Shown: positions 28,440-37,338 of the stretch, piece by piece | How positions within the stretch are numbered: position 1 is the first letter of the stretch | Layout: every line of letters begins with the position of its first letter | NCBI GenBank assembly: GCA_947503525.1 | Contig: CANNEA010000006.1 | Coordinates: forward strand, 62,001-126,000 | Direction: 5' to 3' | Origin: an uncultured Carboxylicivirga sp. | Lineage (GTDB): Bacteria; Bacteroidota; Bacteroidia; Bacteroidales; Marinilabiliaceae | Length of the DNA stretch: 64,000 nucleotides | The notes under the pieces: model-generated | Database searches by the model: none | What the model was told of the DNA's origin: nothing | The model's input: only the letters and a program-made list of their open reading frames with translations | Made by a program: the position numbers and the translations under genes

Positions 28440-28678
28440 AGTACTAGCTTCTTTTAAAGGGTTGTTAACTGAGATTTATTTAAAAAGCATTCATCATTCG
28501 TAACAAAAATTCAATCCCTTTTTTGATTATCATCATTCACTAGCATAGACTGCTCTGCCCAAAACCAAAGTAAAAAGTTAAGCAAATTTTATCAGTTTTC
28601 CTTTTAATTAAGAATAAAAAGTAAAGGCAGTTTTATTGCATGAAATTTCTTATCTTTTTAATTCTAAATGGAAACCTT

Positions 28679-31600
28679 ATGCAAAATGATTGGAGCCATA
28701 TGGACCGTGGTGCATCATTTCCTGATGACGGCAATAAATCAAGTAGGGCCTTAGGATTATTGAATAAGTTGTTAGAGATTTTACGTCAGGAAAACCCAAT
28801 TGATGAGACCTTGGAGGAGTTCATAGATCTTCTGCCAGAGGGGCTTAGTTATCCTGATTCAATTGTGGTACGAATTCGTTATAAGAAGCTGGAGTTTACC
28901 TCAACAGGATTTGCAGAAACTAAATGGGCATTGACTGAACGATTTACAACCATTGATGGTGAGAAGGGTGCCATAGATGTATTTTATGTCGATGAGAAAG
29001 AGGAAAAGGAGGAAGGGCCATTTTTACGAGATGAACGTGTAATGATTCATGAGGTTGCACGAATGCTGACCTCATATATAAACAATATTGTTGCTGAACG
29101 TAGTCATTCTGAATCGCTCGAACGCCTGAAAGAATTATCGACGATTAACCGAACCACCAGGATAATTAATGAAGGCAAAACCATTGATGATGTCTTGCAG
29201 CAGATTACTTTTGTGCTACCATCGGGGTGGCAATATCCTGAATTTGCGGTTGCCCGAATTAAATATGGTGACAGAGAATATAAAAGTGAATATTTTTCTG
29301 AGAGCGAATGGGTTCAAACGCAACGTTTTCAAACCACCGATGGAAGATCCGGCTCGATTGATTTATACTATACCCGTGATTTTTCTTATTTCTCCGGAGA
29401 TCCTTTTCTTAGTGAAGAACGTGATTTATTAATGAACCTGACGCGCCTGGTTACTGATTTTCTTAATTCAAATTTAGCCAAGCAAGAAAAACTTGAAAGT
29501 AAGGAGCGGGTTAAGGAATTAAAAACCATTAATGAGACTTCACGCGTGATAGGCCTTCAGATGCCTTTGGCTTATACTTTAAGTCATATTGCTGAATTGA
29601 TACCAGCAGGGATGCAGCATCCTGAATATTCCGTTGCACGGATTGAATTTAATAAGCAGGAATATATTAGTTCGGGTTTTGTTGAAACACCCTGGCTTTT
29701 ACGCCATCGATTTGAAACGATTAATGGGAAAAAAGGGGCTATCGAAATTTACTATTTAAAAGAATTGGCTAAAACTCAGGAGGAATTATTTCTGAATGAA
29801 GAGAACGATTTGATTGGCAATCTGGGTAATCTGGTAGTCGGCTATTTGAACAGTATGGAAGCCCGACATTTGATGGATAAAATTCGTCGACCATTAACTG
29901 AAATCCATCAGCATAAAAAAAGTATTAGCAAGAGTAGCTCAGAAAAAAACAGTAAGCACCTTTTGCAGAACTTTATGCACAAGAATAATGCGGCAAGGGA
30001 TATTTATCACGACTTGATGCCATTTAGAGTAAAAGAGATTTTGCTTGTCGCCAATCTGTATGATGCTTATGCCATAGAGAACGAAGGGCGGTTTACGGAA
30101 CAAGTGATGGGCGGATTTTACCAGTTACATTTATCATCCTTACCGCGAGTAACAGGTGTAACAACCTACAAAGAGGCGCTTGATAAATTAAATGAGAAGC
30201 ATTTCGACCTGATCATTGTGATGGTTGGCGTTGAAAAGAAATCACCACTGAATTTAAGTAAAATGGTGAAGAAGGAGTTTCCTTATATTCCCATTTTTAT
30301 GCTTTTGAATAACGATACCGATATTCCATACTTTCAGGCAAGGCAACGTGAACTAGGTGTGCTGGATGAAATATTTGTTTGGAATGGTGATCCCAAAGTA
30401 TTTTCATCCATGGTGTTTCATCTGGAAGATAAGGTGAATGTGGAGAATGATACTGAAATTGGTTTAGCACGCGTCATTTTATTGGTTGAAGATTCGGTAA
30501 GGTATTATTCAAAATACTTGCCGCTATTATATGCCAGTGTACTGGAGCAAACCCGCAGATTAATTGATGATGTGCAAGGCGACGAACTCTATGCTGTATT
30601 GCGCATGCGAGCCAGACCCAAAGTGTTACTGGCCAGAAATTATGAAGAAGCTCTTGAGATTTTTGAGAAGTATAAGGATTATCTTTTGTGTTTAATCTCC
30701 GATGTTGAGTTTTCGCATAATGGGCAGATGGATGCCAATGCGGGTTTTGAGTTGGTGAATTATGCCAAAAATCAAATAAAGGATTTGCCGGTCATTCTGC
30801 AAAGCTCGAAAATTGAATATTCTCAGGATGCCTATGAGTTAAAAACAGTATTCATTAATAAATATAGTGAGAGCCTAATTCAGGATATAAAAACTTTTAT
30901 AAGCCATTATTTAGGCTTTGGTAATTTCGCCTATAAAGATGCCAATGGTCGAAATATTGCCATTGCACGAAACTTGAAAGAATTTGAACAGAACCTTCGC
31001 AAGGTACCTATTGAGTCTGTTGTTTATCATGCCAAGAAAAATCATTTTTCGTTGTGGCTGATGGCCAGAGGTGAGATTAAGATTGCTAAATTAATTGGAC
31101 CTTATCGGATTAGTGATTTCAAAAATGCCGAAGAGATAAGAAGCTATTTACTCAAAATCATCAAATCGCATCGCGAAGAGAAGAATCAAGGCAAAGTAAT
31201 TGATTTTGATGAAGTGGATGTCCTTGATGATAGTAACATCGTTAGTCTTTCGGGTGGCTCACTAGGAGGAAAGGGAAGAGGATTGTCTTTTATAAATACG
31301 CTTTTGTATAATTTTGATTTTGACTCTTTTGTACCTGGTATAAATATTCGTACTCCCCGCACTACGGTCATTGGAACCGATGAATTCGAATTATTCATGG
31401 AGCGTAACAATTTTCGTGAGCTAATATTTCGAGACATCAGCTACCATCAGATCAAGAAAATGTTTTTGAGTGGTGAATTATCGCAGACCTTAGTCCATCG
31501 ATTAAAACGTCTGCTGGCGATTTTTTCTTCACCTATCGCCGTTCGTTCTTCCGGATTATTAGAAGATAGTCAAAAGCAACCCTTTGCCGGCGTATTTGAG

Positions 31601-35938: not shown

Positions 35939-36000
35939 CTTATGGCAATAGGTGTCATTTATATCATTGCTAATTGAAATTATTAAATAATAATTGGAAC

Positions 36001-37338
36001 ATGAACCTTGAACGATTTTTACTTGAACTAGAGCAAAATAATCCTGAGGAGCCAGAATTTATTCAAGGTGTCAGGGAATTTCTTATATCGGTTAGTGATC
36101 GTATTAAGGATGATTTCCGACTTAGTAATGCTGGTATTCTTGAACGATTAACCGAGCCGGATCGCGTATTTGTGTTTAAAATTCCTTGGTTGAACGATCA
36201 AGGAAAAGTGATGGTTAACCGAGGTTATAGGGTGCAATATAATAATGCCCTTGGGCCATATAAAGGTGGTCTACGGTTTCATCCGGCATTGACTTTAGGA
36301 ACGGTTAAGATGCTGGCATTCGAACAGGTGTTTAAAAATAGCCTGACATCTTTAGCCTTAGGTGGGGCTATGGGAGGCGCCAATTTTAATCCAACTGGTA
36401 AGTCGGAAGCTGAAATTATGCGTTTCTGTCAGAGTTTTGTTCTGCAATTATGGGATTTGTTGGGTGCCGATATGGATATTCCTGGAGGCGACGTTGGTGT
36501 TGGTAGTCGTGAAGTAGGTTATTTATTTGGGATGTATAAAAAGCTAACTCGCCAACATAATGCCGCGTTTACGGGTAAAGCACCGGATTGGGGAGGTACT
36601 GCATTACGCGCTGAATCGACAGGTTATGGTGTAATGTATTTTCTAAAAGCCTTGATGGATGATAACAACGATACGCTTGAAGGTAAAACCATTTGTGTAT
36701 CAGGTTTTGGAAATGTGGCTTATGGTGTTGTTCGGAAGGCTGTTGAGTTAGGTGCAAAAGTGGTTACCCTTTCTGGTCCGGATGGTTTTATTCATGATCC
36801 GGAAGGCATTTCTGATGATAAACTGGATTATTTAATTGAATTGCGTGCTACTTCACAGGATTTGGTTCGGCCATACTCAATAGAGTTTCCGGGTGTGGCG
36901 TATTACGAAGGCCAAAAACCCTGGGGTATAGCTTGCGATATTGCCATTCCGTGTGCCATACAAAATGAGATAGGAATGAAGGAAGCCAAACTATTGATTG
37001 AGAATAAATGCAAATACCTGGTGGAGGCGGCAGATAAACCATGCATTGCTGATGCTTCAGAATTTCTTGTTGCAAATGGTGTGAAACTGGCACCAAGTAA
37101 GGCGGCCAACGCAGGAGGTGTTGCGGTTTCTACTTTAGAATTGGCTCAAAATACAATGAAGATCAATTGGACCAATGATGAAGTTAATACTCGCTTGAAG
37201 GATATTATGGAGCGTATATATCAATTGTGTAAGATTCATGGCGCTAAACCGGATGGAAGCATTAATTTAAGCGATGGAGCAAATATTGCCTCATTCCATA
37301 GAGTGGCAGAAGCTATGATAGATCAGGGAGCTGTATAA
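36001..37338 (+). CDS. Glutamate dehydrogenase paralogue 3 with catalytic Lys replaced by Met
   Basis: 445 residues from ATG 36001 (an in-frame TTG at 35974 is less likely). The fold is complete and closest to paralogue 1 (GFGNVAYG, TLSGPDGFIHDPEGIS). Key sites differ: the family GGGKGGSD is GGAMGGAN, so the catalytic Lys is Met (codon 36370-36372), and the next Asp is Asn. RPEATG is RAESTG, PAGD is PGGD, and the ANM element is ADKP. The binding Lys in GPYKGG, FKNSLTS and the acid/base Asp remain. It is probably inactive or changed in reaction, perhaps a ligand sensor or regulatory subunit of another GDH. Third gene of the ATP-grasp/receiver operon. Confidence 0.85.
   Translation: MNLERFLLELEQNNPEEPEFIQGVREFLISVSDRIKDDFRLSNAGILERLTEPDRVFVFKIPWLNDQGKVMVNRGYRVQYNNALGPYKGGLRFHPALTLGTVKMLAFEQVFKNSLTSLALGGAMGGANFNPTGKSEAEIMRFCQSFVLQLWDLLGADMDIPGGDVGVGSREVGYLFGMYKKLTRQHNAAFTGKAPDWGGTALRAESTGYGVMYFLKALMDDNNDTLEGKTICVSGFGNVAYGVVRKAVELGAKVVTLSGPDGFIHDPEGISDDKLDYLIELRATSQDLVRPYSIEFPGVAYYEGQKPWGIACDIAIPCAIQNEIGMKEAKLLIENKCKYLVEAADKPCIADASEFLVANGVKLAPSKAANAGGVAVSTLELAQNTMKINWTNDEVNTRLKDIMERIYQLCKIHGAKPDGSINLSDGANIASFHRVAEAMIDQGAV

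Follow-up and report, generated by a model that had tools for sequence, protein, structure and literature searches.

The stretch analysed here (the window) comprises 64,000 nucleotides of contig C6, part of the 6.56 Mb assembly from an uncultured Carboxylicivirga sp. (GCA_947503525.1) and carries a cluster in which two paralogous receiver/ATP-grasp proteins, here called A and B, are encoded next to glutamate dehydrogenase (GDH) genes. Genes A (28679–32923), B (32966–35938) and D (36001–37338), the last encoding a GDH paralogue with Met at the presumed catalytic lysine, form a single plus-strand run in which 42 bases separate A from B and 62 separate B from D, the latter counted from the ATG of D at 36001. 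G1 (27087–28439, minus strand), an intact NADP-type GDH that keeps the catalytic Lys (NCBIfam NF006929, 760.6 bits against a cut-off of 536), diverges from A across a common intergenic region at 28440–28678. The initial annotation, which described three closely spaced same-strand genes, a Lys-to-Met GDH and an intact NADP-like GDH divergent from the same regulatory region, is borne out in each of these points. Gene A could begin at 28640 or 28679, the latter probably being the true start, judging by eye from relatives that open with MQRNW-like residues resembling the longer reading from Met14 onward; a TTG at 35974 is also open as a start for D. A third GDH of the genome, intact and of a different GDH subgroup, is encoded about 7 kb upstream (20565–21905, plus strand). 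Between 20000 and 40000, Rfam gave no match at its gathering score and none near the promoter, and promoter-like sites were not enriched (21 found versus 31.9 expected from shuffles).

Protein A consists of three sensor-like domains, a degenerate receiver, an intact receiver, a linker, a PPDK_N ATP-grasp domain and a C-terminal domain, and B follows the same order from the degenerate receiver onward. PPDK_N (Pfam PF01326, cut-off 27 bits) is matched in A at 3.2e-38 (132.3 bits; residues 874–1241, 31259–32362) and in B at 8.4e-40 (137.5 bits; ATP-grasp residues 426–805, 34241–35380). In a family alignment of 70 rows (the window's B, 60 other B-type proteins, a third paralogue from the same genome and 8 A-type rows), the ATP-grasp residues K439, R530, E776, E778 and Q797, which we equate with residues of PPDK, are invariant. 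The second receiver (residues 171–323 of B; 33476–33934), whose fold is also matched, is intact, with E178, D248, S282 and K301 in 70/70 rows and D179 in 68/70. The presumed phospho-acceptor column of the first receiver lacks Asp in all 70 rows, and Pfam Response_reg scores below its cut-off in A and B. The original description of paralogues with tandem receivers and an ATP-grasp domain thus holds for both ATP-grasp domains and has to be amended in that only the second receiver is intact and A also bears a sensor-like domain of about 130 residues, repeated three times in tandem (28748–29899). Among A-type proteins, those of the genus together with L008 mostly show three recognisable copies, 16 others show one clear copy, and G016 and G027 have two and three, respectively; a 134-row FastTree phylogeny sets the A-type proteins apart as one fully supported side of a branch. 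The best NCBIfam matches of A and B are phosphoenolpyruvate (PEP) synthases and PigC/RedH, all far under cut-off, and a Parabacteroides record annotates the homologue merely as 'PEP/pyruvate-binding domain-containing protein'.

Neither A nor B gave a Pfam match to the phosphohistidine domain (PF00391) or to the PEP-binding barrel, and about 185 residues of B follow its ATP-grasp domain. In some alignments of an AlphaFold model, the C-terminal RWG/GTHFF domain of B (residues 806–990; 35381–35935) coincides in part with the swivel domain that carries the phosphohistidine in PEP synthase, PPDK and rifampin phosphotransferase, a match read solely from the first and last aligned residues. The earlier statement that both domains are missing is upheld for Pfam and qualified, for the phosphohistidine domain, by this overlay. 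R880, W881, D885, E905, S916, H920 and N924 are invariant in the 70-row alignment; His920 (codon 35723–35725) is a candidate phospho-acceptor, and the invariant His of the A C-terminal domain (residue 1358 counted from ATG 28640; 32711–32713) is found in 26/26 rows. The closest solved folds to the model are small-molecule dikinases. Two further ideas about this region were dropped: a phosphohistidine partner acting in trans, as the only PF00391 match of the genome lies inside a PPDK ATP-grasp frame, and a degenerate nucleotidyltransferase site at the RWG motif, because distant members with a fused nucleotidyltransferase carry both RWG and a separate NTP_transf_2 domain.

The association of this family with GDH genes was assessed in 113 loci, comprising the window, the best 80 of 266 matching loci (near loci) and 32 fetched regions, with genes taken from an open-frame script and families defined by clustering; gene order within the genus does not count as independent evidence. 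Fetching for 29 of the 33 genomes with strong matches yielded 31 distant loci. GDH is the commonest neighbour, with 79 occurrences in 52 of the 113 loci, the next families reaching 13 loci, and the chance density of GDH is 0.9% per 20 kb (40 genomes). Among 60 evenly drawn Bacteroidales genomes, the family is present in 55, GDH (searched for at E 1e-60 with a single type of query GDH) in 55 and both in 52, and the two lie within 3 kb of each other in 19 of these 52, about 0.39 being expected. In a draw of 148 genomes from the class, the 8 matches at E 1e-60 were the own genome, five of the same order and two others of the class. When other family members are not counted as intervening, a divergent GDH stands upstream of 16 of the 22 A-B pairs with 2 kb of upstream sequence (17 counting L008, which dropped out of the count on account of a 94-residue open reading frame), and GDH adjoins a family gene in 24 of the 31 loci outside Bacteroidales, where the GDH-adjacent members include receiver-less forms (584 residues) and nucleotidyltransferase-bearing forms. 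In Parabacteroides distasonis, gdhA diverges from the homologue with 195 bases between them, and tblastn indicates the same layout in Phocaeicola massiliensis. The link between the family and GDH is real, far above chance, strong and old. The usual partner is an intact enzyme rather than the Met form.

The nearest named relatives among the best matching loci are Carboxylicivirga and other Marinilabiliaceae. L014, from a record titled Chlorobiota, encodes a B 71% identical to that of the window in a Marinilabiliaceae-like gene order and is probably misnamed; in L006 (5471–9762) and G013 (C66), A is broken into two overlapping frames by a frameshift or sequencing error. The PLSDB 'plasmids' L240, L241 and L242 are probably chromosomal pieces, judging by housekeeping genes, among them valS and gdhA (annotated in L240), or by a size of 1.77 Mb (L241), and a plasmid search with a nucleotidyltransferase-bearing member matched two of the three over part of the protein.

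Other enzymes of 2-oxoacid, acetyl-CoA and redox metabolism recur beside the family. Within five genes, the 80 near loci contain GDH in 27, 2-oxoacid:acceptor oxidoreductase in 11, NuoE-NuoF-GltD/NuoG-like proteins in 9 and any of these in 43, the groups having been identified through representatives. 2-Oxoacid:acceptor oxidoreductase genes lie directly 5' of the family gene in L052 (3549–12964) and in L047 (6920–14463), the latter reading KorA-KorB-B-GDH on one strand. FabD-like and FolE-like genes, named by eye, occur in 13 and 12 loci, always on the opposite strand. The third A/B paralogue of the source genome (L148, 8608–13618, contig C2) is directly followed by the acetate-CoA ligase gene acsA, and of the 13 genomes of the genus that carry this paralogue, 12 have an AcsA homologue after it, in G005 with an extra open frame between. 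These neighbours extend the picture beyond GDH to 2-oxoacid, acetyl-CoA and redox nodes.

In D, an ATG codon (36370–36372) occupies the position of the catalytic lysine: Met133, numbered from the TTG start, aligns to Lys125 of Clostridium symbiosum GDH (chain 1bgv), which we take to be the catalytic residue, and the GDH domains are matched by Pfam with the Lys89 and Lys113 positions kept. Lys stands at this position in 72 of 83 distinct GDHs and Met in the other 11; the 11 form a single clade (SH-aLRT 100), so a single origin of the Met form is read from the tree. This clade groups at 98 with the GDHs of L031, a Lys-type enzyme whose gene comes immediately after B in a different genome of the Bacteroidales, and L222, which sits on a long branch and is encoded on another contig than the family member found in that genome. 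The L031 enzyme (7883–9220) has Glu at the Asp165 position, and this sister lineage may also be altered. In 10 of the 14 genomes of the genus, D comes after B, and in G022, from another genus, a short open frame separates the two; the remaining four genus genomes keep A and B without D, and Carboxylicivirga linearis (L010) lacks D between unchanged flanks. All 11 distinct Met copies are full length and retain the Lys113, Asp165, Asn373 and Ser380 positions, with Lys89 in 9/11 and Thr209 in 3/11. The ratio of nonsynonymous to synonymous substitution rates (dN/dS) is 0.02–0.12 for D (6 of 36 pairs with measurable dS, from 9 of the 11 distinct copies) and 0.02–0.04 for G1 (7 of 15 pairs measurable), and, compared over the same pairs of genomes, D changes at roughly double the rate of G1 (for example, pN 0.13 versus 0.08, and 0.19 versus 0.09). 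Judged by these ratios and kept positions, D is constrained yet freer than G1, and therefore reads as a retained pseudoenzyme rather than a wreck. Matches to GGAMGG elsewhere in relatives were set aside, the 10 loci read comprising nine transketolase-like sequences (by eye) and one Met-type GDH. The initial proposal had made the Met-type GDH the defining partner of A and B, which is not supported, given the usual intact partner and the four genomes without D; its expectation that neighbours would not vary at random is supported by the recurrence of GDH, but that of a Met-type GDH accompanying the pair fails in part.

Some relatives combine the family with nucleotidyltransferases, phosphoesterases or regulators. 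A C-terminal NTP_transf_2 domain is matched by Pfam in the distant members L174 and L173, and similarity identifies eight fused members (L168, L171, L173–L177 and L179), seven with GDH in the cluster. In L174 (3139–9562) and L173 (6843–10858), GDH precedes receiver-less family members, with NTP_transf_2 fused in one of two in L174 and also in L173, where the called GDH and family frames overlap by 7 bases. L066 (4701–14415) has A, a nucleotidyltransferase with a sensor domain, a calcineurin-like phosphoesterase (both Pfam-checked), B and a downstream intact GDH; L065 (137–10288) shares this arrangement, with homologues of the two middle genes in the same order, and the L066-type phosphoesterase is also encoded next to the fused members of L174, L175, L177 and L179. 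Stand-alone nucleotidyltransferases and phosphoesterases occur in 2 and 6 of the 113 loci, and a search of the source genome for the L066-type nucleotidyltransferase matched only sensor domains inside A, unrelated types not being excluded. A histidine kinase and a LuxR-type regulator, the former a possible receiver kinase, lie between two GDH-family units in L154 (9788–11858), and a Crp-like regulator with the A-type sensor domain is encoded near family and GDH genes in L065 (7918–9039, Pfam-checked) and L074 (10361–11482).

It is tentatively proposed, as a reading that could well prove correct, that A and B belong to the PEP-synthase/rifampin-phosphotransferase superfamily as ATP-dependent phosphotransferases that are gated by their receivers and act on or for enzymes of 2-oxoglutarate, glutamate and redox metabolism, chiefly GDH. 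The observations behind it are the intact ATP-grasp residues, the one intact receiver, the invariant C-terminal His and the linkage to GDH genes. The trigger would be either a phosphate placed on the second receiver by a kinase encoded elsewhere or a ligand bound by the sensor copies of A; the ATP-grasp domain would then charge the C-terminal His, and either the phosphoryl group or a conformational state would be relayed to GDH, setting its activity. The acceptor domain unrecognised in A and B would most simply be supplied in trans by a neighbouring enzyme. D probably arose as a GDH encoded next to B that lost catalysis through Lys125Met while keeping most substrate residues, and probably serves as a non-catalytic subunit or sensor tuning A/B or an active GDH. 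The earlier idea of a control system tying PEP/pyruvate or ATP state to glutamate/2-oxoglutarate state gains good indirect support on the GDH side, from the linkage and the other 2-oxoacid and redox neighbours; a role for PEP or pyruvate does not, no PEP-binding domain being recognised.

Several observations weigh against such a mechanism. Neighbourhood is no proof of action on a neighbour. None of the three enzyme groups is present in 37 of the 80 near loci. Of the 52 Bacteroidales genomes that have both the family and GDH, 33 carry them more than 10 kb apart or on separate contigs, in some cases perhaps because the assembly is broken there; GDH is likewise absent from the 9 kb around the family gene in the Prevotella relative L241, and D is missing from the four genus genomes noted above. 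No kinase is encoded in the cluster, a histidine kinase and regulator between two such units being found only in some distant genomes. Other results speak against the swivel assignment: several of the fold rows for PPDK and rifampin phosphotransferase (5hv1, 5hv6, 5lu4, 5jvl) end at model residue 802–805, the fold tool rates the C-terminal part as barely tested, and profile comparison detected no similarity of this domain to the phosphohistidine family (0.3%), with the ATP-grasp control found at 78.5%. Profile comparison replaced an hhalign run against a single PPDK sequence, which missed even that control.

Alternatively, A and B may be small-molecule dikinases that make a phosphorylated metabolite, with GDH linked as part of a shared metabolic response and the receivers merely switching the enzyme. 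Both the nearest solved folds and the sub-threshold NCBIfam matches point that way, but neither protein has a recognised second-substrate domain, and the several unrelated neighbouring enzymes fit a regulator better than a single pathway step, which leaves this explanation unlikely. An ordinary consequence of shared transcription and inherited gene order, for which the single intergenic region of divergent G1 and A and the conserved surroundings within the genus might speak, appears very improbable, as distant lineages show the linkage anew, involving different GDH subfamilies, gene orders and strands.

Reversible nucleotidylation of GDH, as by GlnE/GlnD for glutamine synthetase, is suggested by the GDH found with seven of the eight fused members, by the nucleotidyltransferase and phosphoesterase between A and B in L066 and L065, with an intact GDH downstream, and by the phosphoesterase beside four fused forms. 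It is nonetheless distinctly improbable for the family as a whole, considering that L171 is fused without GDH, that the stand-alone genes are so rare among the loci and that the source genome has only the sensor part, inside A. For some relatives, these nucleotidyltransferase and phosphoesterase genes do raise the possibility of reversible covalent modification. As for D, decay of a functionless duplicate would account for its absence from four genomes, its doubled rate relative to G1 and the erosion of the Lys89 and Thr209 positions in some species, yet it seems quite unlikely in view of the full length, low dN/dS, four universally kept positions and constant place after B of the Met copies.

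Comparison with known systems places A and B near the PEP synthase/PPDK/rifampin phosphotransferase superfamily, from which they differ by having no recognised PEP or rifampin domain and no PF00391 sequence match, and by their two N-terminal receivers and link to GDH. Response regulators with enzymatic output are another comparison; PorX, an example of these, is not known to have an ATP-grasp domain, and one of the two receivers of A and B is degenerate. GlnE and GlnD are dedicated modifying proteins of a nitrogen enzyme, glutamine synthetase; distant family members resemble them in their nucleotidyltransferase, whereas A and B have no such match and the source genome has none of the L066 type. 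Split dikinases (HpeHI, CreHI and PpsAB) use a separate swivel partner (PMC12167813), in contrast to the sole PF00391 domain of the source genome, which shares a frame with the PPDK ATP-grasp. PMC6794564 and PMC9522360 describe GDH or GDH-like proteins, the trigger enzymes RocG/GudB and YwlG, that regulate by protein contact, acting on GltC or HPF; D differs as a Lys-to-Met variant beside ATP-grasp proteins. PEP synthase or PPDK beside gdhA is not mentioned in the accessible text of PMC5552732. BT1971/1972 of B. thetaiotaomicron, considered as candidate family genes, were dropped, BT1971 being a catalase. A literature search, with most subscription journals outside its reach, returned neither a description of A/B-type proteins nor a dedicated protein modifier of GDH, and the family is seemingly undescribed.

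GDH is a main route of ammonia assimilation in Bacteroidales, and the family occurs in 55 of the 60 sampled genomes of the order, including gut commensals. In a broader and rather doubtful extension, receiver-switched ATP-grasp proteins might constitute a new post-translational control of central nitrogen and redox metabolism, in which a divergent swivel domain is charged at a phosphohistidine and passes the group to dedicated clients encoded next door (GDH, 2-oxoacid oxidoreductase and acetate-CoA ligase). One lineage would have added the GDH pseudoenzyme as a mimic of the client, and others a branch with nucleotidyltransferase and phosphoesterase. The A/B/D cluster may represent an unrecognised way to control nitrogen metabolism.

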